This document shows positions 6,001 through 62,215 of a stretch of 64,000 nt of DNA, piece after piece (within the stretch, counting starts at the first letter, position 1; each line of letters begins with the position of its first letter). The DNA is taken from NCBI RefSeq assembly GCF_007990755.1, contig NZ_BJXA01000030.1, positions 1 to 64,000 of the forward strand, read 5' to 3'. The position numbers and the translations under genes were made by a program. This DNA is from Nocardia ninae NBRC 108245 (lineage in GTDB: Bacteria > Actinomycetota > Actinomycetes > Mycobacteriales > Mycobacteriaceae). The notes under the pieces are model-generated. The model did not search any database. It was not told the DNA's origin and worked only from the letters and a program-made list of their open reading frames with translations.

Positions 6001-8718
6001 CTCGCCAACCGCGACTCCCGGCACCGCCGCAACACCGGAGATCGCTGGCGCGGGCCGATCCGCGGCGGGGCCATCGGGCCACAGCCGTTGCCGCTGGAAG
6101 GGATAGGTCGGTAGGTCGATAGGCCGGCCCGGGGTCAGCAGCGACACCCAGTCGACTGCGGTCCCCGCGACCGACAGCGCCGCGGCATTGGCCAGCAGCC
6201 GCGCACGGCCACCGTCGTCGCGGCGCAGCGATCCCACCGCCACTGCCGTCGCCCCGATCGTCTCGATCGTCTGCTCGACGGCCATGGTCAGCACCGGGTG
6301 CGGGCCTGCCTCGACGAAGGCGGTGTAGCCGTCAGCCAGCAACGCTGCGGTGGCCTCGGCAAACCGCACTCGGCCGCGCAAGTTGGTGTACCAGTACTCG
6401 GCGTCACACTGTGCCGTGTCGAGCCGCGCCCCGGTGACAGTCGAATAGAACACCACGTCACCGGTGCGCGGCTCGATCCCGGCCAGCGCCGAGGGGATCG
6501 AGTCTCGCAAAGTCTCGACGTGCGCCGAGTGCGACGCGTAGTCGACCGGAATCCGGCGCACCTGCACCCCGTCGGCCTCGCACACCCGCAGCAACTCGTC
6601 GAGTGCACCGGTGTCGCCGGCTACCACGACCGATGCCGGGCCATTGACCGCCGCGATAGCAAGGCCATCCGCCCGCGGCGTACGACCCGGAATCTCGGTC
6701 CCGGACGCGACCTTGTCCAGCAAGCACTGCACGTCGGCCGCGGACGCGGACACCGACGCCATACCGCCCTTGCCTGCGAGCCCGCTCAGTGCCCGGCTGC
6801 GTAGCACCACGATCCGGACCGCATCGACCAGGCTCAGACCGCCCGCGATGTAGGCGGCGGCAATCTCGCCCTGCGAATGCCCGACCACGGCGTCCGGCCG
6901 CACACCGGCCGATATCCACCACTTCGCGAGCCCAGTCATCACCGCGAACAGCGCAGGCTGCACCACGTCGGTCCGCACGATCGACGGCGCGTCGGCGTCC
7001 CCGTCGAGCAGGCCGAGCAGCGACCATCCCGTCAGCGGGTCCATTGCCCGCGCGCAGGCCGCCAGGTGTGTACGGAAAATATCAGAGGACGCCGACAGCT
7101 CGGCGCCCATGCCGATCCACTGCGCACCCTGCCCGGGAAACACGAACACGGTCTTACCCGGCTCCGTGTCGGCCCGACCGGTGACAAGATTCGCGGCGGC
7201 GCCGGCTGTTTCCAGCGCGGCCAGCCCGGCGCACGTATCGGCGACGTCGGTACCGAGGATCACAGCGCGGTGGTCGAACAGGGTGCGCGTCGCGACCGAA
7301 GACCACGCCAGATCCGCCATCGACAAGTCCCGATCAGCATCGATGCGCGCCCGCAACCGTCCGGCGGCCGCCGCGAGCGCGGCACGGCTGCGCGCCGAGA
7401 CCAGTACCGGCACCGGCATGACCGGCACCGCAGCCGCCTGCTCGGCCCGCGCGGGCGCCGCGCCCACGACGACGTGGGCGTTAGTTCCACCCATGCCGAA
7501 TGAGCTGACCCCGGCAACCGCGTCCCCACCGGGCGACGGCCACGCCGACAGTTCGTCCTGCACACGCAAATGCAATTCCGCCAGCGGGATTCGCGGGTTA
7601 GGGGTGGTGTAGTTCAGGCTCGGCGGCAGTTGTCCATGCTGGATGCTCAGCACCGTTTTCAGCAGTCCGGCGATACCTGCGGCCGCTTCCAGGTGACCGA
7701 TGTTCGTCTTCACCGAACCGACGCGCAGCGGTGTCGACGAGGTCCGAGCGTCGCCGAAGGCCAGCCCGAGGCCGTGCGCCTCGATAGGGTCACCCACCGA
7801 AGTGCCGGTGCCGTGCAATTCGACATACTGCACCGCCGACGGTGCGATGTCCGCGTCCAGCAATGCGGCGGTAACCACCTCGGCCTGGGCCCTGGCGCTG
7901 GGCACCGTCAGTCCCGACGTCGCGCCGTCGTGGTTGATCGCGCTGCCCAGGATGACGCCGTGCACGGTGTGCCCGTTGGCCAGCGCGTCGGTGAGGCGCT
8001 CGAGCACCAGCACGACGCCGCCCTCGCCGCGGACGTACCCGTTGGCTCGCGCGTCGAAGGTGTAACAGCGGCCGTCGGGCGACAGCGCACCGAACGCCGC
8101 CGACTCCCGGCTGTGCTCCGCGCCGACGATCAGGTTGATGCCACCGACGATGGCGTGACTCGTCTCACCGCTCCGCAGGCTCTGGCACGCTAGATGCACC
8201 GCGACCAGCGACGATGACTGTGCCGCATCGACACAGAGACTCGGACCGGCGACGTCCAATAGATAGGAGACCCGGTTCGCGATCACGGCCCGGTTGGTCC
8301 CGGCCATGGCGTGGCGGTTCGCGGAGCCGATGTCGTAGCCCGCCAGCACCTCGCCGTATTCGTCGGTCATTGCGCCGACGAAGACCCCGGTCCGGCTGCC
8401 CGCCAGCGAGCCGGGCACGATCCCGGCGTGTTCCAGGGCGGTCCAGCTCAATTCCAGCATCAACCGCTGCTGGGGGTCCATCGCCAGTGCCTCGAGCGGC
8501 GCGATATCGAACACAGCGGGATCGAAGCGGTCGATGTCGTCCAACAGACCCGCGTGGCTCAAGCCCGTCGTCGCCGCCTTCCGGTCGTCTGCGGTATCGA
8601 CCTTGACGACCGCCGACCGACCGGCACGCAGCAGCGTCCAGAACGCATCGGGGTCGTCCGCCGCAGGGAGTCGGCACGACATTCCGACGATGGCGATGGA
8701 CTCACTGCGACTACTCAT
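1..8718 (-). CDS. Modular type I polyketide synthase: KSQ-AT-ACP loading module plus KS-AT-DH-ER-KR module (3' end outside window)
   Basis: Open for 2,906 codons from the ATG at 8718 to the left edge, so the C-terminus (at least an ACP) is missing. Loading module: KS (about 5-430) reads VDAAQSSS, with Gln167 where the catalytic Cys should be; AT (about 530-830) has GHSQG around Ser615 and YASH at 727-730; ACP has GFDS with Ser942. Extension module: intact KS with Cys1163 (DTACSSS), AT with Ser1604 and YASH at 1704-1707, DH with HxxxGxxxxP at His1903 and DxxxH at Asp2067, ER with HAGAGAVG near 2480, KR with TGASG near 2666, an LDD motif (B-type) and catalytic Tyr2807. KSQ domains decarboxylate the loaded extender, and YASH indicates methylmalonyl-CoA, so I infer a propionyl starter, then one methylmalonyl unit reduced to a methylene. 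Its start lies 88 bases after the aminotransferase, on the same strand, so it is probably the last or a middle gene of that operon. Confidence 0.95.
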
Positions 8719-8806
8719 TGCCTCGCAACAACTTTCAGTCAAACTTGATAGGTACTTGCCGGGCGGCGGCGCGCCCTCATGCGTCGTCGCCCATCGGTGG
8801 ATGCCG

Positions 8807-10072
8807 TCAGCTCGCGAGAGCTTCGAAGCCAGCTGCGATCCGGTCAAGCTGCGAAGCTACGTGCGGAAGCTGCGCAGGGTCGTCGGAGTGCAAGGCCTCG
8901 AGTTGTTGCTGCCGGTCGCCGTACAGCAAGCTCGTCGCGGCCTTGAAGCGCAGCGCTTGTGGATCATCGCCCAGCAGATGCCCGGCTAGTACGACGATGC
9001 CGAAGTCACGCAAGAGTGCTTCGGCCAAGGATGCGGAGTCCGTAATACCGCGCCCGGCCAGTTGCGCACGCCGCGGCTCGAAGTCCGGGTACACGTAGAA
9101 CCCTCCGACAGGGGGGCGGCAGCTGGCACCGGCGGCGACAGCCGTGCCATGTACCGCGCGGGCCACGGCGCCGTGCAGCCGGGCACAGGCGGCGAGCCGC
9201 TCGGTCACCTCCGGTGGCTCTGCGAAAGCGTGCTCGGCCACGTGCTGCATCGGTCCGGCCAGCGTCGACCACATTTCGCTGGCAATTGAGACCACCGAAT
9301 CGCGCAGGCGCTCCCCGCCCGCGCCAGTTGGAAAGCGCGCCACGCCGATGCGCCAGCCACCCAGCCCGAGAGACTTGGATAGACCGCTGGTTATCACCAC
9401 CCGATCCGGAATCACCTCGGCAGGACTGAGAACGGGTGTGGCCACCGGATCATGGACGACGTCGCGGTAGATCTCGTCCGAGACGACCAGCAGGTCCTCC
9501 GCCTCCGCGACGGCACAGACTGCCCGGACGAGCTCCGGCGACGCGAGCGTTCCGGTCGGGTTGTCAGGCAGGGTCAGCACTAGCAGACGGGGATTGCCGC
9601 CGGTGACCCGAGCTTTGCGGATCGTCTCTTGGAGCGCGCCGGGTTCCGGGACGCCACCGCACTCGGCGGGGATCGGAACACGGTAGACCTTCTTGTGGGC
9701 AAGTTCGGCCTGTGGTGCGTAGGTGTTCCAGGCAGGCTGCGGCAGCAGTACATCGCCCGGCACAGCGAATTGCAACGCCATCAGCAGCGGCTTGCTCCCC
9801 GGGGCGACAACCACCTGGTCGGCGACGGTGGGTATGCCACGACGGCCGAAATAGCCCGCCACCGCCGCCCGTACACCATGGTCTCCGGCGACCGGGCCAT
9901 AGGCGGCCCGCGACGCTCCGGCCGCCAGCCGTTGCGCCAATTCCGGCAGCACCGGCAGCCTGGCTTCGCCGAAAGCCAAGTGCACCAACAATTCTCCTGC
10001 TGCAACGCGCTCGTCGACAAGCTGGTTGAGTGCAAGGTTCGCAGAAGTGCGGTTGGGAACCATGATGTTCAT
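8807..10072 (-). CDS. PLP-dependent aminotransferase, class I/II
   Basis: 421 residues, normal length for fold-type I aminotransferases. It has an NPTG motif (DNPTGTL), the SDEIYRD segment that holds the cofactor-binding Asp/Tyr, and SGLSKSLGLGGWRIG, in which Lys233 is the expected Schiff-base lysine. These are family hallmarks; the substrate cannot be read from them. The ATG overlaps the stop of the upstream KamA gene in an ATGA, so translation is coupled. Together with KamA and the cyclodeaminase-like enzyme it probably makes or modifies an amino-acid-derived building block for the adjacent PKS. The substrate (a beta-amino acid, diamine or keto acid) is unknown. Confidence 0.88.
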   Translation of the reverse strand: MNIMVPNRTSANLALNQLVDERVAAGELLVHLAFGEARLPVLPELAQRLAAGASRAAYGPVAGDHGVRAAVAGYFGRRGIPTVADQVVVAPGSKPLLMALQFAVPGDVLLPQPAWNTYAPQAELAHKKVYRVPIPAECGGVPEPGALQETIRKARVTGGNPRLLVLTLPDNPTGTLASPELVRAVCAVAEAEDLLVVSDEIYRDVVHDPVATPVLSPAEVIPDRVVITSGLSKSLGLGGWRIGVARFPTGAGGERLRDSVVSIASEMWSTLAGPMQHVAEHAFAEPPEVTERLAACARLHGAVARAVHGTAVAAGASCRPPVGGFYVYPDFEPRRAQLAGRGITDSASLAEALLRDFGIVVLAGHLLGDDPQALRFKAATSLLYGDRQQQLEALHSDDPAQLPHVASQLDRIAAGFEALAS

Positions 10073-46484: not shown

Positions 46485-46954
46485 GTAGCGACGCGAAAGG
46501 CATCGCCTTACCACTGACCTGGTCCGCCAACCAATCCGCGACTCCGGCGGATACCGATCTACCGATACGACTTCCGATGCCGGAACTAATTGGCGACATC
46601 GACGCCCAGACTGATCAATTCCACTACAGCGTCGCGTCGGTCGGCGTCAACGGCCGCCTCAGTGACCGCAGGCCAGTCGGAGTCTTGAACTGGGGACCGG
46701 AGTCGAGGTTGGCAATCGAGGTCGTCGGACGAACCATTGTCATCAGAGAGCACCAGCGCGGCGACCGCCGCCTAACAGGTCGAGGACATCTACTTCTACC
46801 GGCAGGTTGCCGCCATCGCTGCCAGATCGAACCGGGCGAGCAAGTTCTTGTCGCAACGTCAGTGCAACGCACACTTCTTCTTGTTTATCCGATACGGCTT
46901 ATCGAGCAGGCGTTATCACCGTTGCATGAGCAAGCGACAGGTGGTGCCCGATGA
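46481..46954 (+). CDS. AbrB/MazE-like small protein
   Basis: 157 residues from the ATG at 46481. The segment VASVGVNGRLSDRRPVGVLNWGPESRLAIEVVGRTIVIRE is a plausible swapped-hairpin AbrB strand pattern, then a second hairpin-like repeat, GRGHLLLPAGCRHRCQIEPGEQVLVATSVQRTLLLVYP. AbrB folds bind DNA or act as antitoxins. It overlaps the integrase start by four bases. The assignment rests on the strand pattern only. Confidence 0.5.
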   Translation: MSSDAKGIALPLTWSANQSATPADTDLPIRLPMPELIGDIDAQTDQFHYSVASVGVNGRLSDRRPVGVLNWGPESRLAIEVVGRTIVIREHQRGDRRLTGRGHLLLPAGCRHRCQIEPGEQVLVATSVQRTLLLVYPIRLIEQALSPLHEQATGGAR

Positions 46955-47967
46955 CAACCGCCACCGAGATCGAGGCCGCCAGGCTGTTGCTTGCGAAACT
47001 CGGACTCACGCCGCAGCAACTCGTCGAAGCCACCCCGCCGGTCCACGTCCCGACCTTCAACACCTATATACAGGCGATCATCGCCACGATGCCGCCGACC
47101 ACGCTCCGCGTCTACGGCCCCTACCTGCGACGCATCGAGGAGGCATGGAGTGCGCGTCTCATCACCGAGCCAACCCCTACCGAGCTGCGACAACTCGCCG
47201 AACAGACCAAACAGCAGGCTATCGTTCGTCGCAACTCGCGCGGTGGGCGTAGCGCAGTCGAGAGTCTCATCGCCGCCGCCCGGTATCTCTACCGGCACGC
47301 TGAAGAAGACGGTTACATCCGCCCCGCTGACAACCCGGCGCGAAAGGTACCCAAACCCCGGAGGCTGGCCAGCACCAGGCGGGCGATACCCCACCAGCAA
47401 CTCGCCGAAATCGTGCACGTCGCGGCGACCACCGGAAACGACCCGTACCTGGATGCCATGCTGCTTCGCCTTCATATCGAAACCGCCTGTCGGCGAGCTG
47501 GCGCTCTTGCCTTAAGGCCGATGGACCTCGATCCACAACAATGCCTCGTTTTTCTACGCGAGAAGGGCGAAACAGTCCGTTGGCAACCAGTGTCGTACCC
47601 GCTCATGCATGCCATGCTCAACCACATTGCGGAACGACACGGTGACAACCCCGTCGAATCCGAACCGTTGTTCCGTCAACGCGACGGCCGAGTGGTCACG
47701 CGGCGACGCTACGACTCCCTATGGAATCGGATCGGTGCTCGCCTCGAATGGGTCCGGCGCCAGCAGATCAGCACCCACTGGCTCCGCCACACGACCCTGA
47801 CCTGGGTCGAGCGCAACTTCGGCTACGCCGTCGCCCGTGCCTACGCCGGACACACCGAACCAGACAGCCGTACCGGACAAACAGCCACCTACATCCGCGC
47901 CAGCGTCCAAGAGGTCGCCGAAGCGCTGTCCGCTATGACCGGAATCCCACATCCGCTCACCGGCTGA
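46951..47967 (+). CDS. Tyrosine site-specific recombinase / integrase
   Basis: 338 residues. The catalytic set is readable in the C-terminal half: Arg in LHIETACRRAGALAL, HxxR in HWLRHTTL, the GH of YAGHTEPD and the Tyr in TATYIRAS. The N-terminal part has a SAM-like core-binding domain (TFNTYIQAIIATMPPTTLRVYGPYLRRIE). It is the last gene of a coupled unit (small protein - HTH - AbrB-like - integrase). No phage structural or plasmid genes surround it, so it is either a resident recombinase or the remains of an element. Confidence 0.85.
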   Translation: MTTATEIEAARLLLAKLGLTPQQLVEATPPVHVPTFNTYIQAIIATMPPTTLRVYGPYLRRIEEAWSARLITEPTPTELRQLAEQTKQQAIVRRNSRGGRSAVESLIAAARYLYRHAEEDGYIRPADNPARKVPKPRRLASTRRAIPHQQLAEIVHVAATTGNDPYLDAMLLRLHIETACRRAGALALRPMDLDPQQCLVFLREKGETVRWQPVSYPLMHAMLNHIAERHGDNPVESEPLFRQRDGRVVTRRRYDSLWNRIGARLEWVRRQQISTHWLRHTTLTWVERNFGYAVARAYAGHTEPDSRTGQTATYIRASVQEVAEALSAMTGIPHPLTG

Positions 47968-48140
47968 TCAGTCGGAGGCAATCACGTCCCCAGGGAGACC
48001 CGTTCGAAGCCAACCGATAAATCGCCACCGGGGCAGGTTAAACCGAACCGGCTAGCTGTACGAGTTTCCCCCCAGTCCGACAACTCAAGCGCGCCTGGCA
48101 AATCGCTCATCGCAGAGATTGGTCAGAGGAGGGTTGCGGG

Positions 48141-48678
48141 CTATCTGAAGTCCGGGAAACGGGTCAAGATCATGGCCGCGGCCATGGCCGACTCGGCGAC
48201 CGTATGGAAGTCGTCGCAGATGTCCGTGCTGGCGTGCTCGTCCAACCAGGGCTCCGACATTTGGACGATCGCGTTCCGCAGCGCTGCGGCCTCGGTCGGG
48301 TGGCCGTTGGCGAGCACCACGGCTGCGGTGGCGACGCGGATATCGAGCGAGTGTTTGAACTGCGGGTCGACGGCAAGGACCGCGCGGACAGCAACTGCGG
48401 ATCGACCCACCGCTGCTCCAGCGCGGCCACCGAGAACGCCCCCGGATCCCACGCCCAGATATCACCATCGAGAAAGCAGCCGTATCCCGCACGCTCGGCA
48501 AGCTCTGGATCGTGCTGGCGCGCCAGCTCTCCGGCATCCCACCGGCGAGCGGGACCGGGCCCGAGGTCGTGCGCTCGGCCGCCGCCAAATCCCACAGCCC
48601 GGCCGAGGACTCCACACCACCGGGAAAACGACAACCCACACCAACAATCGCAATAGGATCACTATTCGAAGCAGACAC
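48141..48678 (-). pseudogene. Ketosynthase N-terminal remnant, frame-broken
   Basis: From a GTG at 48678 with GAGGAG upstream comes [26 protein letters not shown], the start of a modular PKS ketosynthase. Near 48560 homology continues in another frame (WDAGELARQHDPEL, then GCFLDGDIWAWDPGAFSVAAL), and after VDPQ it is lost. A third frame carries unrelated sequence (DIRVATAAVVLANGHPTEAAALRN) to 48141 that I do not recognise. So the KS is truncated long before its active site and is not functional. It points to a former modular PKS at this place, on the opposite strand to the present cluster. Confidence 0.72.
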
Positions 48679-48749
48679 AACAACTCCTCGGATACGCAGG
48701 GCTCGGTGATATGAGGATTGCAAAAGGGATCGAAGGAAATTCGAGGCCG

Positions 48750-50130: not shown

Positions 50131-51456
50131 GTGAGAAGTTCTGTCCTTATCCAGTTCCCGGGGCTGGGTGGTTACGCTCCGGGGATCCTCGCTCGGCTGG
50201 TCGCGGACTCACCGCGCCTGGGCGCGGTCTTGTCCGAGGTCGACGCTGTCGCCGCCGGATATGGGTTCGGTCCGGTATCGGGGCCGTTGACCGATCCCGA
50301 TGGTCCGCCGATCGAGGACCTCGCCCAGACGCCGACACTGTTGCACTTGGCGTCGTTCGCCTCGTCCTATCTGCTCTACCAGGCGTTGCATGACAAAGGG
50401 ATCGACGGTGACGTGCTGTTGGGGCACAGCACCGGTGAGCTCACCGCTCTGGCTGCCGCAGGGGCGCTATCGGTGCCGGACACGGCGCGGGTGTTGTGCG
50501 AGCGGGAGGTTGCCCTCGCCGAGGCCGGCATCGGCGGTGGCCTGGTCGCGGTGCGCGTCGGCGCACGGCATGCGGAGTATCTGTGCGGCGCGGCCGGTGG
50601 CTGGTCGCTGCTGGTATCGCTGTCGAACTCGCCCGAACAGACGGTGGTTTCGGGCTGCGCCCAGGATCTCCCGCGCTTCGAGGCGGTAGCTCAGGCTGCG
50701 GGGGTGCAGGCGACTCGGTTGCTTGTGCGCTATCCGCATCACAATCCGGTGTTGCAGACGGCTGCGCGGCGGGTGACCGCGGCGGTGGCGGCATATCAGA
50801 TGCACGATCCCGCGGCGCGGGTGTATTCACCGATCCTGGGGCGCTGGGTAACGGGCGCCGCGGACGTGCGTCGTATTGTCGAACGGCATCTGATCGATCC
50901 GGTGGACTATCTGCGGGCCCTGCGCACCCTCTACGACGGTTTCGCTGTGCGGGAGTTCATCGAGGTCGGCGTCCGTCCGGTGCTGACCGAGTCGGCCCGC
51001 GAGAGCCTGCCCACCGGCGCCACATTCGTGGGCCCACCGCCGAACGCGTGTGACGCGCAAGAGATCCTGAACGTTCTGGCAAGTACCGGCGAGCCAGAGG
51101 TTGCGGCACGGGTCGCGTCGGCGTCGGCGTCTGCGGTCGCCGAGACCAGCGGCGAGCCGGGACCGGGGGCCACGACGGACGCGCGGTCACTACCCGACCG
51201 CGACACGCTGCTGGCCCGGCTGCGGACGATGTTCGCCGAAACACTGGGCTATCCCGAAGATGTATTCACCGATGACGCCCATCTGGAAGCGGATCTCGGG
51301 ATCGCATCGGTGAAGAAGACCGAGCTGCTGGTGCGACTGCTCGACGAGTACCAGTTGCCGACACCGCCGGCCCGGCTGCGCATGCGCGACTACACCACCC
51401 TGCCGAAACTGGCCGCACTCATGGAGACACTCGCAGTGGACGGGGCGAAGCCGTGA
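50131..51456 (+). CDS. Acyltransferase - acyl carrier protein didomain
   Basis: 441 residues from a GTG with AGGAGG five bases upstream. The AT part (about 1-310) begins SVLIQFPGLGGYAP and has the nucleophile in GHSTGE (Ser100). The linker of about 50 residues is Ala/Ser-rich, then comes an ACP (about 355-435) with phosphopantetheine Ser393 in DLGIASVKKTELL, more like PUFA/enediyne or CurA-type carriers than modular ones. It supplies extender units and the carrier for the KS protein that follows, whose start overlaps its stop by four bases. The extender specificity cannot be read confidently. No phosphopantetheinyl transferase is in the window. Confidence 0.88.
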   Translation: MRSSVLIQFPGLGGYAPGILARLVADSPRLGAVLSEVDAVAAGYGFGPVSGPLTDPDGPPIEDLAQTPTLLHLASFASSYLLYQALHDKGIDGDVLLGHSTGELTALAAAGALSVPDTARVLCEREVALAEAGIGGGLVAVRVGARHAEYLCGAAGGWSLLVSLSNSPEQTVVSGCAQDLPRFEAVAQAAGVQATRLLVRYPHHNPVLQTAARRVTAAVAAYQMHDPAARVYSPILGRWVTGAADVRRIVERHLIDPVDYLRALRTLYDGFAVREFIEVGVRPVLTESARESLPTGATFVGPPPNACDAQEILNVLASTGEPEVAARVASASASAVAETSGEPGPGATTDARSLPDRDTLLARLRTMFAETLGYPEDVFTDDAHLEADLGIASVKKTELLVRLLDEYQLPTPPARLRMRDYTTLPKLAALMETLAVDGAKP

Positions 51457-54400
51457 ACACCACTTCGACACCGGCGCGGGGCACGGTGGCGATCGTCGGC
51501 ATCGGCCTGGTCGCCCCGGGCGTCAATGATCCACCACAATTGTGGCAGGTGCTGCACGGTCAGACGAGCACGCTGTGCCAACCCGAACACTTCGATGTGA
51601 GCCGATGGTTCGACCCCGACCGGTCGGCACCGGACAAGACCTACGTGCGCACCGCGGGATTCCTGCACTCGTTCACCCCACATCCGCGGCTGGCACGCGA
51701 GCAAAGCCTCGGCTACTGGGAGGGAGCCGACCGCACGACGCTGCTGCTGCGCCACAGCCTGCTGCAGGCCATGGACGGTGTCATCGTCGGCCCGGATGAC
51801 CGCCTCGGCGCGTATGTCGGTGCACAGCCGGGCGGACTAGGGCTCGAAGACGCGATCCTGCTCGCCACCGCGGCCCACCCTCGCCTATCGCCGACCCTCG
51901 AGCAGTTACGCGCCCGGTACCCGCACGCACCCGCCCGCCCGTCCGACGCCTTCCCGGACCGGCTGCTGCGGGCAGCGTGCCGGGATCTGCTGCCCGAGGG
52001 CAGCGACCTGCTCGTGGTCGACACCGCCTGCTCCTCGTCGTTGTATGCCGTCGATCTCGGCGTCAAGAGCCTATTGGCCGGTGAACGCGATGTCGTGTTC
52101 TGCGGCGGCGCCAACACCGGGTCACGGCGCGACCTGGTGCTGTTCGCGAAGCTGCAGGGCCTCTCGGCCACCGGTGAGATCCGCGCGTTCGACCGCGACG
52201 CGACCGGGGTGCTGTTCTCCGACGCGGCCGCGGTCCTCGCGCTGAAGATGCTCGACCGCGCACTCGCCGACGGCGACGAAATCCACGGCCTGGTGGGCGG
52301 ATTCGGCGGATCAAGCGACGGTGAGGGCAGCGTGATGGCCTCCTCGCCGCGGGGACAGCGTCTGGCGATCGACCGCGCCCGCGCCGTCTGCGCTGTCGAG
52401 GCCGGCGCGGTCGATTGGATCGTCGCGCACGGTACCGGCACCCCGGTCGGTGACGACGTGGAACTCGAAACACTCACCGGTGCAGCAGGACCCGGCGGTG
52501 TGTGGTGCACGTCGAACAAGCCGCTGATCGGGCACGGCGCGTGGGCGGCCGGGGCGATCAATGTGGTACATGCGGTACTGGCGATGCGGCACGGCGAAAT
52601 CCCTGCCCAACGCTACTTCACCGTGCTGCCCGACAGTGTGCATGCGGACCGGATCAGGATTCCGCTGGAACCGGTGCCGTGGCCGGTGAGTGCGGGCCGC
52701 CGCCGGGTTGCCGGGGTCTGCGCGTACGGTTTCGGGGGAACCAACGCACATCTGCTGGTGCAGGCCGCGGACCCGGGAGTCGATGCGCCGCGCATGGCAG
52801 CACCGACCCACAGTGCGCACCAGGATGATCCGATGGTGCTGGTCGGCCACGCGGTGCACGTCCCCGGCGGCATGACGCACGACGCGATCGCCGGGTGGCT
52901 GGGTGGTGAACTGCCCGCGCCGCCACGGTCGTTCGGCGAGCAGTACCCGCTGCCGCCGTTGCGCGAGTTGCGGATGCCGCCGGTCAGCGCGCGCAGCGTC
53001 GACCGGACCCATCTGATGGCGCTCGCCGCCGTGGCGAACCTCGTGACCGAATACGGCTCGATGTGGGAGCACCTGCGCGAACGCAGCGGGGTGTTCACCG
53101 CGCACACCGGCCCGACCCGCTGCATGACCGACTACACCATTCGGGTCGGCGCGGACGATCTGCACGCGGCCGTCGCGACACCGCCCTCCGGGGATGTCGC
53201 GTGGCTCGACGAGGGTCTCGCCGCGCTGCGGCAGCGGCTGCCCGAAGCCAACGACCGGAGCATGACCGGGCAGCTCACCAACATCATCTCCGCGATGGTG
53301 GTGAACCGGTACCGGCTCAACGGGTCGGCGATGAACATCGACTGCGGCCGATCCTCGACGCAGGGTGCGTTGCATGCCGCCGAGCGATACCTGCGCTCCC
53401 AGGAATTGGACTTCGCGCTGGTGATCGGCCTGCACGGCAACAGCACCCCGCTGCTGGCCGAACTCAGCGGGACCCCGGTAGACCAGATCGCCGAGGCCGC
53501 CGTGGTGCTGGCGCTGACCCGACGCTCGGTCGCCGAGCGGCACGGCTGGTCCTTCGACGCCGTCATCCGCAGCGACGCCGCCCGCACCGGACGGCACGCG
53601 GGTATTCCCGGTGTCGTCGGCCGATGCTACTTCGGCGCCGACGGGGCCCTCGGCGTGCTGCGAGCCCTGCACCGCGCAGGCACCGGCCCGATCGTGCTGC
53701 AGAACCTGGATCCCGCACCGCGGGTAGAGATCCAGCCGACGCACCCGCCCGCGGAGCCACTCGCACCGGCACCCGGTCGCCGCCACGGAGTGCGCCGCGC
53801 GGCGCCGCCCAGCGGCACCGATACCCCGCCGCAAGCGAATCATCCTGTCCCCGTGACGGATTCGACCATCAATAGCGAGACAATGTCACCACGCATCGGG
53901 TCGCCCTCGCCGGTACGGGACCGCTCGGTGGTCGTGCTTCGCCGCGTGGACGTGGAGCGCGGCACGGAGCCGAGGGCGGCAATCACATCCGGGACGCTCG
54001 TCCTGACCCACAGCGCCGACCTCGCATACCAGCTCGATGCCCTTGCCGTAGAGACCGATTCGCGAGTCGTGTGCACCGACCCGGAAACCGCCGGAAACGA
54101 CCGGATCATCGTGGTCGGTGGCGCCGGGACACGGGCGGCGGTCGACGCCGTGCGAGCAGCGATACCCGGCGGAGTCGAGCATGTGCTGATCGTGGCCTCG
54201 GCCCGCGTCCCGCAGGCCGACTGGCCCGCCCCACCGTCACCCGAGCTGCTCGCCATGCAGGAATACGCGCTCGCAGCGGCCGCGGCCTTCGGCGACCGAC
54301 CCGGCCCTGCCGCCTCGGTCACCGCGCTGCTACTGGATCCATTGCGACTCAGTGTTGTTCACCCACATCTGACGATGATCACCGGATTCCTGCGCGGCCT

Positions 54401-56327
54401 CGCGCACGAACTGCCCTGCCCCGTCTACGGGGTGGTCACCGATGCCGCACTCACCGCCGGGATCGAGCAGCTGAGCCGCGAATCCGCCGCTGTGCGCGAC
54501 GCCACGATCGTGTACTACCGGCAGGGGCTGCGGTATCTCGAACAACTCTGTAGCGCACCACTTCCCGACACACGCCGGGCGGGCCCGTTGCCGTGGACGG
54601 ATCGGCCGGTGATCGTCGCCACCGGCGGGGCAAGGGGTGCCACTGCGGTGGTGGTGACCGCCCTGGCACGACGTGTGCACCCAGTGCTGTGGCTGCTGGG
54701 TACCACACCACCCGACGCGGCGCCTGCCGATCTGCTCGCCGCTGCCGACGGCGAACTCAGGGCCAAGCGCACGGAGTACCTGTCGCGGGAGCGCACCCGC
54801 GATCCCGCTGTCAGTGTCGCCATCCTGAACCAGCGATTCGACGCGATGGTTCGTGCCCGCGAGATCCATCACACCCTGCGCCGACTGGAGCAACTGTGCG
54901 GCACCGACAACGTCCACTACCTTGTCTGCGACCTGCGCGAGCGGGAACAGGTGACGCGGGCGGCGAAGTCCGTGCACGCCAAGCACGGTCGCGTCGATCT
55001 GCTCATCCACGGCGCGGGGCGGATCCGATCCGCCGCGGTCGCCGACAAATCCCTCGCCCATTTCCGGGAGGTCCGCGACATCAAGGTGGCGGGCTACCAT
55101 CATCTGAAAGAAGCGTTCGCCGACCCCGCTCCGGCGCTGTGGTGCAATTTCGGTTCCGGCAACGCCATGCGCGGCTGCGCCGGTGATACCGACTACGTTG
55201 CCGCCAACGAATACCTGTGCGCGGCAGCGCGATACGGTGACGGCACCGAATTCACCCCGGCATGGGGATTGTGGACCGAGACCGGAATGGTCTGCGGCAT
55301 CGCCGACGAGCTGAGCCGCGAACACGGATTCACCGGCATCAGCAACACCGACGGCGCGGATCTGCTGCTGGCCGAACTCGCCCTACCGCGACCACTGGAC
55401 GTGGTCCCGTTCTACGGGGTCACCGACTCCTGGACCCGGCCACCGGGTCCAGTCGGCCCGCTGCTCGGCGACCCGGACACCGTGGATCATGTCGCGGGAA
55501 CGTGGACGTGGCGGCCCGACCCGGTGCGCGACAGCTACCTGACCGAACATCTCATCGACCGGCGACCGGTGTTGCCTGCGGCGATGATGCTGGCGATGGC
55601 CGCCGACGCGGCCCTGCGGCTCCATCCTGGAACGCAGGTCACCGCGTTGACCGGTACACGGATCGAGGCCCCGCTCTACACCGACGTTCGGGCGGCAGGG
55701 TGCCGGATCACCGCCGAAACCAGCGCAGGCGGCGAGGTCCGCGTCGAGCTGCGTTCGGACGTACTCGCCTCGGATGGTCGGATTCTGGCCTGCGACCGGC
55801 TGCACTGCCGGGTCGATGTCCATGTCGGAAACCAGGCACCGTCACCACCGGCTCCACCCGCGCGGGAGATGACCGCGCTCGCCGGCGATCCGGCGGTGCG
55901 GCCGGATACCTGCGCCCAGCTGTCCGGGGTCTGGCGGACCATCCACCACCCCGCCGCCGACGCGGCGGGCGCGGCGGCGCTCTGCCTGCCGCAACCGCAA
56001 CCGCATACCGTTTTCGCGCGACTGCCGATCCCGGCACTGCTGCTGGACTCCGCCTTCCGGCTCTTCGGGTACCCACCGCAACCTGATGGCACCCACATCA
56101 TGGCGGTCCCCAGCGCCTGCGACCGAATCGACCTCTACACCGCCGACACCGATGTCGTGTTGGCCCAACGATATCCAGCCGGCATCCCCCTGTCCTACGA
56201 CAGCGCACAACAGCGGGCCGTCGCCGCGACCGACGACGGTGCGACCCTGCTCACCGTCACCGGCCTGACGATCCACACCGTGGACTCCCTCCCCGCGCAC
56301 ATCCCCTACCAGGAATGGCAACCATGA
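51453..56327 (+). CDS. Iterative PKS: KS - KS-like (CLF) - KR - DH
   Basis: 1,624 residues. KS (about 8-435): Cys193 in DTACSSS, His in AHGTGTP (about 326) and IGHGAWAAG (about 360), FGGTNAHL. Second KS-like domain (about 455-760): MNIDCGRSSTQGAL at 627 onward, where the catalytic Cys position is Arg633; this is a chain-length-factor-type partner. A Pro/Arg-rich linker follows to about 860, then a KR (ATGGARGATA near 1055, catalytic Tyr1248 in DYVAANEYL) and a C-terminal hot-dog DH (EHLIDRRPVLPAAMM with His1366; a second half to the end). No AT, ACP, ER or thioesterase; AT and ACP are on the preceding protein. KS plus CLF recalls PfaC, KR-DH recalls enediyne PKSs. A polyene chain is the expected kind of product. 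Confidence 0.88.
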   Translation: MNTTSTPARGTVAIVGIGLVAPGVNDPPQLWQVLHGQTSTLCQPEHFDVSRWFDPDRSAPDKTYVRTAGFLHSFTPHPRLAREQSLGYWEGADRTTLLLRHSLLQAMDGVIVGPDDRLGAYVGAQPGGLGLEDAILLATAAHPRLSPTLEQLRARYPHAPARPSDAFPDRLLRAACRDLLPEGSDLLVVDTACSSSLYAVDLGVKSLLAGERDVVFCGGANTGSRRDLVLFAKLQGLSATGEIRAFDRDATGVLFSDAAAVLALKMLDRALADGDEIHGLVGGFGGSSDGEGSVMASSPRGQRLAIDRARAVCAVEAGAVDWIVAHGTGTPVGDDVELETLTGAAGPGGVWCTSNKPLIGHGAWAAGAINVVHAVLAMRHGEIPAQRYFTVLPDSVHADRIRIPLEPVPWPVSAGRRRVAGVCAYGFGGTNAHLLVQAADPGVDAPRMAAPTHSAHQDDPMVLVGHAVHVPGGMTHDAIAGWLGGELPAPPRSFGEQYPLPPLRELRMPPVSARSVDRTHLMALAAVANLVTEYGSMWEHLRERSGVFTAHTGPTRCMTDYTIRVGADDLHAAVATPPSGDVAWLDEGLAALRQRLPEANDRSMTGQLTNIISAMVVNRYRLNGSAMNIDCGRSSTQGALHAAERYLRSQELDFALVIGLHGNSTPLLAELSGTPVDQIAEAAVVLALTRRSVAERHGWSFDAVIRSDAARTGRHAGIPGVVGRCYFGADGALGVLRALHRAGTGPIVLQNLDPAPRVEIQPTHPPAEPLAPAPGRRHGVRRAAPPSGTDTPPQANHPVPVTDSTINSETMSPRIGSPSPVRDRSVVVLRRVDVERGTEPRAAITSGTLVLTHSADLAYQLDALAVETDSRVVCTDPETAGNDRIIVVGGAGTRAAVDAVRAAIPGGVEHVLIVASARVPQADWPAPPSPELLAMQEYALAAAAAFGDRPGPAASVTALLLDPLRLSVVHPHLTMITGFLRGLAHELPCPVYGVVTDAALTAGIEQLSRESAAVRDATIVYYRQGLRYLEQLCSAPLPDTRRAGPLPWTDRPVIVATGGARGATAVVVTALARRVHPVLWLLGTTPPDAAPADLLAAADGELRAKRTEYLSRERTRDPAVSVAILNQRFDAMVRAREIHHTLRRLEQLCGTDNVHYLVCDLREREQVTRAAKSVHAKHGRVDLLIHGAGRIRSAAVADKSLAHFREVRDIKVAGYHHLKEAFADPAPALWCNFGSGNAMRGCAGDTDYVAANEYLCAAARYGDGTEFTPAWGLWTETGMVCGIADELSREHGFTGISNTDGADLLLAELALPRPLDVVPFYGVTDSWTRPPGPVGPLLGDPDTVDHVAGTWTWRPDPVRDSYLTEHLIDRRPVLPAAMMLAMAADAALRLHPGTQVTALTGTRIEAPLYTDVRAAGCRITAETSAGGEVRVELRSDVLASDGRILACDRLHCRVDVHVGNQAPSPPAPPAREMTALAGDPAVRPDTCAQLSGVWRTIHHPAADAAGAAALCLPQPQPHTVFARLPIPALLLDSAFRLFGYPPQPDGTHIMAVPSACDRIDLYTADTDVVLAQRYPAGIPLSYDSAQQRAVAATDDGATLLTVTGLTIHTVDSLPAHIPYQEWQP

Positions 56328-56872
56328 CACTGACAGCCGACCTCGACGCCACGACCGCAACCGGCCGAGAACCGACGCGGCCGTGGTTCACCATCGAGCA
56401 CCGTGTCACCGCCGGCGACACCAGTGCCGTTGGCCCCGTCTACTACGCCCGCCTGATCGACTGGCAGGGCCAATGCCGAGAACGCTGCGGACAATTCGGC
56501 GCCCCAATCTTCAGCAGCGACATCTCCGGCGACTACATCATGCTCACCCAATCCTGCTCCTGTGAGTACCTCGCCGAACTCTGGTTCGGCGACCTCGTCG
56601 CCATCCGGCTCACCGTTCTGTGGGTCCGAATGACCCTGATGAAAGCTGAATTCCGCTACCACCGCATCACCGCCCCCGGTGCACCCGACGGCGACCTCGT
56701 CGCCCGAGGCGAACAGATGTGGGCCAGCGCCCGCCTGGCCGGCGACCACTACGAACCCTGCCCATGGCCCCGCGAACTCGCCGACTGCGCAGCCGCGTTC
56801 GGCGCCGACCTCAGCCGAGCCCAGATCGACGATTCATCGAATCAACCCGCACCGGAAAGGATTCCCCGATGA
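56324..56872 (+). CDS. Hot-dog thioesterase of the enediyne (CalE7/SgcE10) type
   Basis: 182 residues from the ATG at 56324, overlapping the PKS stop. HRVTAGDTSAVGPVYYARLIDWQGQCRE and SGDYIMLTQSCSCEYLAELWFGDLVAIR follow the CalE7/SgcE10 pattern, thioesterases that hydrolyse the polyene beta-keto acyl chain from enediyne PKS ACP. In those enzymes the stretch reads GNVYY; here Asn is replaced by Pro (GPVYY), so catalysis may differ. The C-terminal 40 residues are extra. Genes on both sides are coupled to it. Confidence 0.8.
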   Translation: MTLTADLDATTATGREPTRPWFTIEHRVTAGDTSAVGPVYYARLIDWQGQCRERCGQFGAPIFSSDISGDYIMLTQSCSCEYLAELWFGDLVAIRLTVLWVRMTLMKAEFRYHRITAPGAPDGDLVARGEQMWASARLAGDHYEPCPWPRELADCAAAFGADLSRAQIDDSSNQPAPERIPR

Positions 56873-58476
56873 CCACCATCAATCATGGCACCGATTTACC
56901 AGGGCACCCGGGCACTGACACACCGCCTCCTTCATTACCCCTCGTCCCGATCACCGCGCGGTCCGCCTGGGCCGCACAACTGATGACCATCGCCCTCAGC
57001 GGTTGGATCGATGATCCCGGCAAGAAATCCCGAGACGCCGGTGAAATCACCCGCGCCGCCTACCCGGTGCTGCCCAAACCACTACGCCTGCTGTTTCCCG
57101 ACCCCTATGCCGACGGCTGGACCGGCGAAACCGTATTCGTGAACTCACCGCGGATCGCCCACGAGATGTACAACCTGCCGCCCGGTCACCTCGACCACGA
57201 GGCATGGAAGAAGGCCCATACCCTGCTGCTGGGCTCGCAGAGCCCCTTCGTCCTGCGTGAACCCGACCACACCAGAGTGCGCCGGGCACTCGCCACCGAA
57301 CTCACACCGCCCCGCATCGAAACCTATCGCCAGCGCAGCGTCGAACGACTCGACGCCATGATCGACCAACTGCCCCTGGACACGCCCGTCTCGCTGCACG
57401 ACTTCTACACCCGCTTCACCCAGGACGTGATCCTGCGCGTCGTATTCGGCTGGGACGACTGCCGCGACCTCGACGAACTGGCCGAGTTTCTTTACCGCGC
57501 GAGCCGCCATTACGCCACCCGCAAGATCGGCGGCCTGCTCGCGTACCAGCTCAACGCCCGGATCAAAATGCGCCCACGCGCCAACCGGGACGTGGCCGAC
57601 CGTGACGACGTGCCCCTGCGGATCCTGTACAAGGCCTACCGGCTACGCAAACACGCCGACGAGCTCCTCTACCGCAAGATCGCCGAACTGCGCGCCCGCC
57701 CCAACGACAGCATCGCGACCCGGCTCATCGAACGCGGCGCACGGGAGGACCCACCCTGGACCGACAAGCGTCTGCGCGACATCATCGCCACCCTCACCGT
57801 CGCCGGGCACGACACCTCGGTCCTCGGCTACGCCTGGGCTACCCAGTACCTGCTGCACAACCCCGAACCACGCGCCACAGTCACCGCCGAGGCCCGCGCA
57901 GCCATCACCGACCGCTACGCCCAAGCGTGCAACACCGAGGCATTGCGCATGCAGGCCCCGGTCCTCGCGGCCTTGCCCTCCCCGTTGCGACAAGACATCG
58001 TCCTGGGCGGCTACCGAATTCGCAAAGGAACCCTGCTCTTCCTGCCGGCAACCGCACTGCACTACAACACGGACCTCTACCCCGAACCCGAGACATACCG
58101 CCCCGAACGGTGGTTCGAAACCAAACCCGAACGCTACGGATTCATCCCATTCGGAGCCGGACCACACCGCTGCCCGGGCAGCACCTTCTACCTCACCGAA
58201 GCAGCCATCGTCACCCACCGCGTCTTCGGCCGCCTCGACCTGGAACCCCGCCGACGCCGCGTCGACCCGGCACGCTTCATCTTCGCCACGGTCAGCCGCC
58301 CGAAAAGCGGGACCGACGTCATCATCCGGCACCGCCGACCCGCCGCGGAAGTGCCCTGGTACCGACCAGGGCACGCCGAAGGGCTCACACCCCTCAAACA
58401 AGCACTACTCCCTCCCGACCCCGGCGCCGACGAACCAGCCCGCTGCCCCTATCCCACCCCGGCACCAACCGCCTGA
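56869..58476 (+). CDS. Cytochrome P450 of the iterative PKS operon
   Basis: 535 residues from the ATG at 56869, overlapping the thioesterase stop. Haem motif FGAGPHRCPGSTF, I-helix TVAGHDTSVLGY, ExxR in EALRMQAP. Closer to eukaryotic-like (class II, CYP110/CYP120-like) bacterial P450s than to the short ferredoxin-dependent ones; no N-terminal membrane anchor is visible. It likely oxidises the chain made by the PKS. The last about 40 residues are Pro-rich. No redox partner is encoded next to it. Confidence 0.87.
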   Translation: MTTINHGTDLPGHPGTDTPPPSLPLVPITARSAWAAQLMTIALSGWIDDPGKKSRDAGEITRAAYPVLPKPLRLLFPDPYADGWTGETVFVNSPRIAHEMYNLPPGHLDHEAWKKAHTLLLGSQSPFVLREPDHTRVRRALATELTPPRIETYRQRSVERLDAMIDQLPLDTPVSLHDFYTRFTQDVILRVVFGWDDCRDLDELAEFLYRASRHYATRKIGGLLAYQLNARIKMRPRANRDVADRDDVPLRILYKAYRLRKHADELLYRKIAELRARPNDSIATRLIERGAREDPPWTDKRLRDIIATLTVAGHDTSVLGYAWATQYLLHNPEPRATVTAEARAAITDRYAQACNTEALRMQAPVLAALPSPLRQDIVLGGYRIRKGTLLFLPATALHYNTDLYPEPETYRPERWFETKPERYGFIPFGAGPHRCPGSTFYLTEAAIVTHRVFGRLDLEPRRRRVDPARFIFATVSRPKSGTDVIIRHRRPAAEVPWYRPGHAEGLTPLKQALLPPDPGADEPARCPYPTPAPTA

Positions 58477-58506
58477 GCCACCCCCGGCCTCGAACAGGAA
58501 ACCAGA

Positions 58507-59244
58507 ATGGAAGCCACACACAACTACCGCCGTTGGGCGGGATACCTGTGCTTCGTCCCACTGCCCGGCCTGATTGTCAGCCTCGCGGTCGCGCGATTCC
58601 CCTATCCCGACGACAACCTCGACGGGCGGCACTACCTCGACTACGGTCTCCCGCACCGCACAATCGAAATCCAAATCCTGACCTGGATCGTGACGACCCT
58701 CGCGACCTGCGGATTCATCCTGCTACTCGCCACCATATTATGGCGCACGGCCCGACATGTCACGATCACAGCACTCATCATGGTCTGCTCCGCCACCGCA
58801 TGCGTCACCACCACTCTGGTCTGCATGGGCATGTACCTCACGCTATCCATGACCGCGCGAGGCCCGAACTTCCAAGCCGATCGCGTCGACCTCGAATTTT
58901 CGACCTATTCCTGGAATGCGACCCAAATCCTCGCTTGCTTCGCAGCGGTATTCCTCGGCCTCGCATGGGCGATGATCGCCGCCGCCAACCACAGACATCC
59001 AGTGCTCCCGCGCGCGCTCGCCAACACCGCCATCGCGGTCGCGGCCCTCGACATCCTGCCCATCCTGTCCATATTTGTCGACTCCGGACCCTGGTCGCCC
59101 GGATCCGTCGGCAGCTACATACCAGGCGCTGTCGCCACCTACGGATGGATGATCGTCACCGGTTCAGTGCTGCTGCGATCCCAGCCGAAGCACCCCACCA
59201 CCCCGATCAAGCTGCAATTTTCTTCGACGGAAAGGATTCAATGA
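58507..59244 (+). CDS. Membrane protein of the iterative PKS operon
   Basis: 245 residues with about six hydrophobic helices (YLCFVPLPGLIVSLAVA, ILTWIVTTLATCGFILLLATI, ITALIMVCSATACVTTTLVCM, ILACFAAVFLGLAWAMIAAA, AIAVAALDILPILSIF, YGWMIVTGSVLL). No transporter family recognised. It begins 30 bases after the P450 stop and overlaps the Rieske gene by four bases. Export, or anchoring the oxidative enzymes, are possible roles. Confidence 0.78.
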   Translation: MEATHNYRRWAGYLCFVPLPGLIVSLAVARFPYPDDNLDGRHYLDYGLPHRTIEIQILTWIVTTLATCGFILLLATILWRTARHVTITALIMVCSATACVTTTLVCMGMYLTLSMTARGPNFQADRVDLEFSTYSWNATQILACFAAVFLGLAWAMIAAANHRHPVLPRALANTAIAVAALDILPILSIFVDSGPWSPGSVGSYIPGAVATYGWMIVTGSVLLRSQPKHPTTPIKLQFSSTERIQ

Positions 59245-60311
59245 TGACAATCGTCGAGCGATCAGTGAAAGACGAGGCCGAAGACATACAGCCGACGCAC
59301 CTCTTTGCCAGCGCGGCCGACCAGTTGCCTCTCCCGAACGGGTGGTTCCCGGTCGGATTCACGAACGAGTTTCCGATGCGGAAGGTGGTCCGTCGAAAGC
59401 TGTGCGGCGAGGAGATCATTCTTTGGCGCACCAAGAAAGCAGGGCTGATGGCGAGCCGCGCGTATTGCCCGCACCTGGGCGGGCACATCGGATACGGCGG
59501 GCGGGTCCGTGATGATCTGCTGGTGTGCCCGTACCACGAGTTCACCTACGATCAAACGGGCAAGTGCACCGGCTCGGGTTACGGCACGCCTGCCCCACAC
59601 CGAACGACCCTATCGATGATGGAAGTTCATGAGGTCAATCATATGGTGTTCGTGTGGCATCACGACCAGAGTATCGGTCCGACCTGGGATATTCCACAAG
59701 TCGGGGAGGACGTTTTCACATTCCCCGTGCAAGGCGGCGACACATCTTTTCCTGTCCATATCCGCGAACTCATTGAAAATGCGTTCGACATCGGGCACCT
59801 TCTGCCGATCCACAACATCAAGCCGATCCAGATGGGGCGCCTCGATCAGGACGGGGCGATTGCCAGATTGAACACCTACACGTCCATGCCATTCCTCGGG
59901 TTCGATGTAAAATTCCACAGCGCGTATACCGCAGTCGGGCTCGGTGCCACATTCATAGACTCATACATTCCCATTGCTCGCATCCGGGTTTTGACATCCA
60001 TTTCGATGACTCCCATTGATCGCAATCTAACTCAGGTAAAAATCGGCTTCAGCGCGCGGTTCACCGCCGTGAAGTCAAAAGCACTTCCGCCTCCCGCGAA
60101 ATTGGTGGACGCACTCACAAAACCACTCGGACTAGCATTTCTCGGATACATCAATCGGCAAGCAGAATTAGACCGCGCATACTTTGCCAACAAGTGCTAC
60201 ACGAACCGCCCCGCCCTCGCAAAGGGAGACGATTTGATCGGCCCATACCGCCGTTGGGAGAAACAATTCTACACCCGAGTCGTCAGCGATCCGAACGGAC
60301 ACAGAGTATGA
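59241..60311 (+). CDS. Rieske non-haem iron oxygenase
   Basis: 356 residues; ATG at 59241 or 59244 after GGAAAGGA. The Rieske cluster motif CxH-x17-CxxH is CPHLGGH (Cys76, His78) and CPYHEF (Cys96, His99). The mononuclear iron site is ENAFDIGHLLPIHN, the D-x2-H-x4-H of the family. The overall type resembles the KshA/DAF-36 (cholesterol desaturase) branch, which oxidises hydrophobic substrates. It is the last gene of the operon; ferredoxin and reductase must come from elsewhere. GC falls in its second half. Confidence 0.88.
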   Translation: MMTIVERSVKDEAEDIQPTHLFASAADQLPLPNGWFPVGFTNEFPMRKVVRRKLCGEEIILWRTKKAGLMASRAYCPHLGGHIGYGGRVRDDLLVCPYHEFTYDQTGKCTGSGYGTPAPHRTTLSMMEVHEVNHMVFVWHHDQSIGPTWDIPQVGEDVFTFPVQGGDTSFPVHIRELIENAFDIGHLLPIHNIKPIQMGRLDQDGAIARLNTYTSMPFLGFDVKFHSAYTAVGLGATFIDSYIPIARIRVLTSISMTPIDRNLTQVKIGFSARFTAVKSKALPPPAKLVDALTKPLGLAFLGYINRQAELDRAYFANKCYTNRPALAKGDDLIGPYRRWEKQFYTRVVSDPNGHRV

Positions 60312-61665: not shown

Positions 61666-62085
61666 TCAGAAGTCGAATACCGACACCGTCGTAGCGCGCA
61701 ATACGCAGGCATTGGAGAAGAAGCCGTGATCGGAGATCGGCTGCCCACGCCAGACTCCATCGATGGTGGCGACGATGGGATCGAAATCCTGTGAACACAG
61801 CGGCGGCACGGTGAAATCCGCGAGCTCGCGGATGTTCCCGTTGGCCGCTTCCAAATTCTTACAGGCCTCCTTGGCTTTCGGATGGGTCCCGCCGATCGTT
61901 GGCGCACAAATCAAGCTGACCACGCGCTTGTAGATAACCTCGACCGAAACCCCAGGCGCCACTGAGAGCGACACCACCGATTGCGTGATCTGGTCGGTCG
62001 CGGCGCCGACCGGCGCGGCCATCGACACCCCGAACACCACCGCCGCACCGATCGAAACACCGACAACCCGACCGGTGCGCGCCAT
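61666..62085 (-). CDS. SSI-family secreted serine protease inhibitor
   Basis: 139 residues from the ATG at 62085, preferred because AAGGG is eight bases upstream (an ATG at 62091 is possible). A signal peptide ends at APVGAA. The mature part matches Streptomyces subtilisin inhibitor: ICAPTIGGTHPKAKEACKNLEAANGNI, then CSQDFDPIVATIDGVWRGQPIS and FFSNAC, with four Cys for two disulfides. The reactive loop reads C-S-Q-D where SSI has C-P-M-V, so P1 would be Gln and P1' Asp, unusual for inhibition of subtilisin or trypsin. It is isolated among mobile remnants. Confidence 0.83.
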   Translation of the reverse strand: MARTGRVVGVSIGAAVVFGVSMAAPVGAATDQITQSVVSLSVAPGVSVEVIYKRVVSLICAPTIGGTHPKAKEACKNLEAANGNIRELADFTVPPLCSQDFDPIVATIDGVWRGQPISDHGFFSNACVLRATTVSVFDF

Positions 62086-62215
62086 GGCCATCACCCTTCG
62101 TAGACGGAGCCGATCCGACCTGCTGCGAGGTTAATCCACCAATCACCCCGCTCGCCGCAATTGACGTCGCCCGGCTGGGTCACGCCGACCCGCGGAGCGT
62201 GCGCCTACGACAGGC

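Follow-up and report, generated by a model that had tools for sequence, protein, structure and literature searches.

We describe here a compact set of biosynthetic genes in Nocardia ninae NBRC 108245, situated within the 64,000-nucleotide stretch of contig NZ_BJXA01000030.1 that was analysed (hereafter the window). Six co-directional genes on the forward strand, from an AT-ACP gene through a Rieske oxygenase gene, occupy positions 50131-60311, and open reading frames together with Pfam place all of them, with their domains, where the original prediction had put them. The first encodes an AT-ACP protein of 441 residues (50131..51456, + strand, as are all that follow; Acyl_transf_1, 2.2e-18; PP-binding, 1.6e-07), and the second a putative iterative synthase of 1,624 residues with KS-CLF-KR-DH architecture (51453..56327; assigned by Pfam and by its relatives). 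These are followed by a hot-dog thioesterase (TE) of the ACP-polyene (enediyne) type (56315..56872; Pfam 4HBT_2), a cytochrome P450 of 535 residues with the motifs AGHDTS and FGAGPHRCPG (56869..58476; Pfam p450, 5.1e-42), a hydrophobic protein of 245 residues that is probably a multi-pass membrane protein and has no Pfam family (58507..59244), and a KshA-type Rieske oxygenase (59256..60311; Rieske, 1.3e-16; KshA_C, 1.4e-15; KshA structure 4qdc, 6e-19), such that both predicted oxygenases are present. The five gene junctions measure -4, -13, -4, +30 and +11 bases; the earlier description of overlaps of at most 4 bases or gaps of less than 31 holds for four of them and fails at one, which is a 13-base overlap. 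Because the junctions are tight and an AGGAGG lies directly 5' of the GTG start of the AT-ACP gene, the six genes likely form a single operon.

The active sites of the two synthase proteins are largely recognizable. The AT carries GHSTGE and YPHHN motifs, and the single ACP on the same protein has the serine motif LGIASVK, with Ala at a position that is Asp in 33 of 45 family ACPs. Asp or Glu precedes the ACP serine in 37 of the 45 distinct family ACPs, and the Asp is replaced in all six TE-bearing loci (by Ala in three, Thr in one and Ser in two); the remaining two ACPs without either residue (L085 and L153) are from loci with no TE match. In the second protein the catalytic KS (KS1, 51480..52802; Pfam KS N- and C-terminal halves) has its Cys and both His residues, and its motifs include one of 13 residues and NKPLIGH, while the short CLF-like second KS (KS2, 52824..53747; identified by motif and profile comparison) reads IDCGRSST at the same place, with Arg at the nucleophile position. 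This agrees with the prediction that the second KS is dead, and it is a property of the whole family: of the 44 family KSs, 43 have Cys at the nucleophile position and all have both His residues, and none of the 44 CLFs has the Cys. The sole KS lacking it carries Ser at that position, and is found in L082, which also encodes a second KS-CLF protein. The KR (53922..55442, structural and catalytic half; Pfam KR, 8.4e-17) keeps GGARGAT, Ser, Tyr and Lys, the last two of which are kept in 40 of 40 family KRs. The hot-dog-type DH (55455..56297; PKS_DH_N, 1.8e-06) has the His of HLIDRRPVLP and the Asp of LLLD, the family totals being 43/43 and 41/43 respectively, and Arg in place of the Gly seen in 34 of the 43 family DHs. 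The best NCBIfam model for both synthase proteins is NF045894 ('type I polyketide synthase', PKS_plus_SDR), at 254.0 and 133.8 bits, well short of its cut-off of 1740.

Electron partners and a PPTase are absent from the six-gene operon. Consistent with the earlier statement that there is no PPTase, a genome-wide scan gives no match on the contig of the window, and the five matches in the genome all lie on other contigs; one falls within the frame of an enediyne-type PKS (contig C54). No enediyne accessory genes were recognized among the Pfam-scanned proteins of the window, a scan that covers part of the frames and includes no enediyne-specific model. As to the surroundings, a phage-integrase-type recombinase is encoded some 2 kb 5' of the operon (46951-47967), and GC content is 66-71% in windows across 50-58 kb as compared to 60% on both flanks; the integrase-type gene and the GC step hint at an acquired segment. 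A minus-strand frame at 48085-48723 weakly resembles the beginning of a KS over a short span (21.5 bits) and is possibly a PKS remnant. A subtilisin-inhibitor-like (SSI) protein is encoded on the opposite strand downstream of the operon (61666-62094), and a modular PKS runs off the left end of the window (1-8847), with genes for an aminotransferase and an ornithine cyclodeaminase-like protein after it.

By sequence comparison the synthase family is real and recurrent. A Streptomyces relative (L011) matches synthase residues 2-1622, with 64% identity in the best segment, and is laid out as a synthase with an AT fused in front, accompanied by an AT-ACP gene and by genes for a thioesterase, an FAD enzyme and a membrane protein. 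Searching with a CLF profile finds 18 family places in 16 of 148 Nocardia genomes, all at or above 231.8 bits with the next match at 81.0, and matches in 25 of 246 Streptomyces genomes (E 1e-25; scores from 398.8 down to 145.0 bits). About a tenth of the sampled genomes in each genus therefore carry the synthase, and these counts are lower bounds as only some candidates per genome were scored. A class sample of 394 genomes adds six further carriers (G137, G199, G197, G187, G409 and G288), and plasmid records add three from Streptomyces (one of them Streptomyces sp. NBC_01237), one from Paraburkholderia and one rearranged relative from Azospirillum. The related loci are not independent of one another, L013 and L058 being almost identical, and L084 is the same record as L150 (1,601,525 bases) and was excluded from the trees and from the scoring of 43 loci; one set of motif tables counts it, the other does not, and the TE table is unaffected by it. 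Local models recover a separate AT-ACP gene in 40 of the 43 loci and KS-CLF-KR-DH in one frame in 35, which bears out the predicted arrangement of an AT-ACP protein acting in trans to KS-CLF-KR-DH. The three loci without a separate AT-ACP are one that starts inside the synthase frame at a contig end (L072), one with AT and ACP in two frames (L146), and the rearranged Azospirillum locus (L086). Within the stretches examined, TE matches are found in six of the 43 loci, P450 in 24 and Rieske in five.

The KS phylogeny separates the family from the better-known iterative systems. All 44 family KSs fall into a single clade (SH-aLRT/UFBoot 99.8/100) in a tree of 81 KSs, and the three reference clades, made up of 11 enediyne-type KSs (100/100), four from PfaA (99/100) and three from PfaC (100/100), contain no family member. 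Of the 94 KS or KS-like pieces extracted, 81 entered the tree, those dropped being too short or duplicate, and references were picked by architecture rather than by name, with PfaA taken as TIGR02813 matches over the cut-off; four plasmid loci initially taken as Pfa candidates (L121, L122, L124 and L125) turned out to be PKSs of other kinds, and their KSs were used as outside sequences. A second tree of 83 KSs with more reference types, which took 29 of the 44 family KSs, again holds these together (99.5/100), and when rooted on type II KSs as outgroup the other 52 type I KSs group with 87/89 support. The sampling covers enediyne, PfaA, PfaC, modular and type II KSs, and not the heterocyst glycolipid, aryl polyene, fungal and some other known classes; within it the family clade stands by itself, and judged by the sampled clades the window KS is neither PUFA-type nor enediyne-type. 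A KS placed firmly inside an enediyne or PfaC clade, which the original prediction had named as a refuting outcome, was thus not obtained with these references. The family is apparently a variant of iterative type I PKS that we have not found described.

These positions bear directly on two alternative origins. One is that the operon arose by rearrangement of a PUFA-synthase (Pfa) system and makes a secondary lipid, with the KS-CLF from PfaC and the AT-ACP from PfaA. A CLF placed after the KS and an ACP that works with a different protein are shared with PfaA-PfaC, alongside which the heterocyst glycolipid synthases are to be named, as is the dead second KS, the CLF profile matches the corresponding region of PfaC, and the PfaA model TIGR02813 matches both proteins, though at 175.6 and 77.6 bits it does so far below its cut-off of 1010.1. 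Nonetheless, the KS lies outside both sampled Pfa clades, the operon has a single ACP, a single DH, a short CLF, an AT-ACP gene and no PfaD-type reductase, and four Streptomyces Pfa pairs look quite different, each with a KS-AT-tandem ACP-KR protein (in L139 a single ACP is matched) and, apart from it, a KS protein of about 2,500 residues. We consider such an origin quite unlikely, and the earlier designation of the KS-CLF as PUFA-type is not sustained. The other is that the operon is a diverged enediyne PKS cassette, a single protein that was split and makes an enediyne-type polyene precursor. It would account for the same catalytic set of KS, AT, ACP, KR and DH and for the adjoining enediyne-type TE, but the window KS falls outside the enediyne-type clade, and in 12 enediyne loci found via their TEs no separate CLF was seen, with KS and AT in one large frame in 11 of them and the twelfth (L119) cut by the end of the stretch. 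In addition, no PPTase lies on the contig, and the same genome has an enediyne-type PKS with its own TE on contig C54; this origin appears very improbable. The C54 locus (L114, 20000-33000) consists of a 1,971-residue frame with the PPTase match inside it and the TE adjoining.

By hhalign the CLF matches the region of PfaC that follows its KS (99.3%, E 4.2e-20, columns 9-267) and matches enediyne KSs about equally (E 1.4e-20), followed by the PfaC KS (8.1e-14), the family KS (3.1e-10), type II KSs (5.7e-8) and type II CLFs (1.7e-4). Derivation from PfaC was considered and set aside, as it cannot be told from a KS origin when enediyne KSs match equally. The profile match spans approximately the first two thirds of a KS, indicating a short CLF, and as judged by profile comparison the CLF has a KS-type fold, in accord with the prediction. 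A profile search also matches the CLF region to residues 521-691 of 'ORF10' in PDB entry 6riw (E 8e-07), which we take to be the Moritella PfaC KS-CLF, and other KSs in the PDB match better, to 6.4e-13. An AlphaFold model of the KS-CLF region, built on a two-row alignment of the window and L011 only, has a pLDDT of 29.9, too low for use. The family CLF profile also matches non-family KSs at up to 108.0 bits, so that low CLF-profile scores prove nothing, and the CLF identity of the Azospirillum L086 region, which scores 99.1 bits and is thus inside the KS range, is uncertain.

Whether the chain leaves the synthase as a polyene or in reduced form depends on enoyl reduction, and here the family is divided. 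In 30 of the 43 loci an SDR match lies in the CLF-bearing frame in front of the synthase. The domain of L013, the one compared, best matches FabL enoyl reductase (3oic, E 1.2e-54; next an oxoacyl reductase, 7.2e-39), and a Yx6K motif is present in all 29 distinct SDR domains aligned (those of at least 180 bits, plus L070), a spacing given for FabL in PMC9260719. L013 resembles FabL in this N-terminal domain, with the difference that the domain is fused to an iterative PKS. By Pfam, the fused SDR is absent from the window synthase, and it is missing also from its three nearest relatives (L011, L059 and L060), and the six operon proteins contain no reductase besides the KR. With neither an enoyl reductase in the operon nor a fused SDR, an unreduced product is favored, and a conjugated polyene is most likely, in preference to a reduced chain. 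The competing view is that an enoyl reductase, which could act from elsewhere, yields a fatty-acid-like chain that is then hydroxylated by the P450 and the Rieske oxygenase. The prevalence of the fused SDR, FabL-like in L013, lends this some credence, as do an SDR-bearing paralogue in the same genome and four Streptomyces loci that have a fused SDR together with P450 and Rieske, but no such reductase is seen in the operon or fused in the three nearest relatives, and both the TE and the L011 epoxidase described below point to alkenes; we regard a reduced chain as unlikely. The paralogous locus (L013; contig C19, 48000-67900) encodes AT-ACP, FabL-like-KS-CLF-KR-DH, P450, a second KR protein and another P450. 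With L086 set aside, 11 loci lack an SDR match, whether in the synthase protein or, for L070, in the KS frame; the TE is present in five of these and in one of the 30 with a fused SDR. The association is partial, in that L069 has both and L071 and L151-L155 have neither. The window locus is probably an oxidising family member of the polyene type.

The TE itself is of the predicted CalE7-like kind. Its PDB matches are 5vpj (4.1e-23), 4i4j, an 'ACP-polyene thioesterase' (2.7e-16), CalE7 2w3x (4.4e-15) and DynE7 2xem (1.7e-13), and being of the enediyne ACP-polyene type it would make release the sole enediyne-like step. Asn19 and Arg37 of CalE7 are presumably the defining positions of ACP-polyene thioesterases, and by the offset of the matched ranges these correspond approximately to Ser37 and Arg55 in the window. 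Arg is present in all 18 aligned TEs and Asn in 14; Ser replaces Asn in the window, L011, L059 and L060, and Asn is kept in L069, L082 and all 12 enediyne-locus TEs. The window TE keeps Arg55 and has both Ser37 and Pro41 where the 12 have Asn, and with these two replacements its hydrolysis may differ from that of the enediyne TEs.

The P450 and Rieske motifs are intact on reading of the sequences. Neither enzyme was found in the stretches examined around the nearest relatives L011, L059 and L060. In their place L011 has an epoxidase similar to LasC/Lsd18 and MonCI (1.1e-38 and 7.3e-37), which suggests an alkene substrate. Elsewhere, L149 has a KAS III-like protein, a P450 and a Rieske protein after the synthase, the first post-synthase frame of L144 is similar to that of L149, and L148 and L150 have P450 and Rieske. 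The window Rieske protein shares 31-33% identity with those of the four Streptomyces loci and 39% with one from G532, a genome without a family-level CLF match in the scan of the window's genus. Inheritance of P450 and Rieske as one pair was considered and rejected, as four Streptomyces loci have both and yet the Rieske protein is nearer to that of G532; the pattern is consistent with recurrent recruitment of the two enzymes. The membrane protein is weakly similar to that of L011 (22% identity, E 7e-06).

We think it probable, if by no means certain, that the operon encodes an iterative type I PKS of an apparently undescribed family, in which a trans-acting ACP serves a KS-CLF protein, a polyene is released by the TE, and the P450 and Rieske oxygenase oxidise it. 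The AT of the first protein would load units, assumed to be malonyl, onto its own ACP, which would work in trans with the KS-CLF-KR-DH protein. The KS would extend the chain, with the dead CLF half pairing with it and helping to set chain length, and the KR and DH would convert each beta-keto group to a double bond. The hot-dog thioesterase would then release a conjugated polyene for oxidation by the P450 and the Rieske oxygenase, perhaps at the membrane, with electron partners supplied from outside the operon. Several features sit awkwardly with this model, namely the ACP without Asp before its Ser, the DH with Arg for Gly, and the changes at Asn in the TE; L082, too, shares the core and the TE of the window and yet has Ser for Cys in its KS. 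A broader view, which we advance tentatively and regard as somewhat doubtful, is that the family is a separate ancient iterative type I class outside the sampled type I KSs, with AT-ACP in trans to a KS that is joined by a shortened dead partner, KR and DH. On this view an N-terminal FabL-like enoyl reductase, gained or lost, would decide whether a member makes a reduced or a polyene product, and the window would lie on a polyene branch that has acquired a TE of the enediyne type.

Among known systems, the enediyne iterative PKSs with their ACP-polyene TEs, such as CalE8/CalE7, DynE7 and SgcE10, share the KS, AT, ACP, KR and DH set, the TE sequence family and likely the polyene logic. They are single KS-AT-ACP-KR-DH-PPTase proteins, in contrast to the two proteins, CLF, other KS clade and PPTase-free contig seen here. 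Type II PKS KS-alpha/CLF pairs also consist of an active KS and a Cys-less partner, but in the window the KS-CLF is fused to KR and DH. The type R secondary lipid synthase, given as KS-MAT-CLF-ACP-KR in PMC3098273, has a similar domain set, but on one protein and in another order. L158 and L159 encode KS-AT-weak second KS-ACP-KR-DH on one protein, and their KSs group with non-family KSs. The accessible portion of PMC4035055 includes PfaA-like and enediyne-like PKSs in Nocardia, and KS-CLF-KR-DH with a trans AT-ACP is not among them. No description of that arrangement or of the same gene order, and no product or name for the family, was found in the open literature searched, including the available parts of PMC3098273, PMC13291983, PMC9582728, PMC3107222, PMC12895367 and PMC11804610, and a prior description is possible. 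The family would add a class to genome-mining rules, and its two proteins would make a compact system in which to study chain counting by a KS-CLF pair. Its SDR-bearing branch would provide a natural test of how a single domain may turn polyene output into reduced chains.

Departures from the common architecture are seen at several related loci. In L015, L074 and L075 the synthase is divided between frames close to the CLF-KR junction, and the L015 frames overlap at an ATGA near the CLF end. L082 (7212-17243) has two synthase proteins, a KS-CLF protein encoded on the minus strand and the KS-CLF-KR-DH protein with the Ser-for-Cys KS, the latter followed by a TE, and in L153 (8338-16914) two KS-CLF-DH proteins flank one AT-ACP protein. 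On the Azospirillum plasmid, a single gene run in L086 (7041-16928) encodes AT-KS-CLF-like and KR-DH proteins, another protein that combines three ACPs with an SDR, and a pair of fatty acid desaturases.
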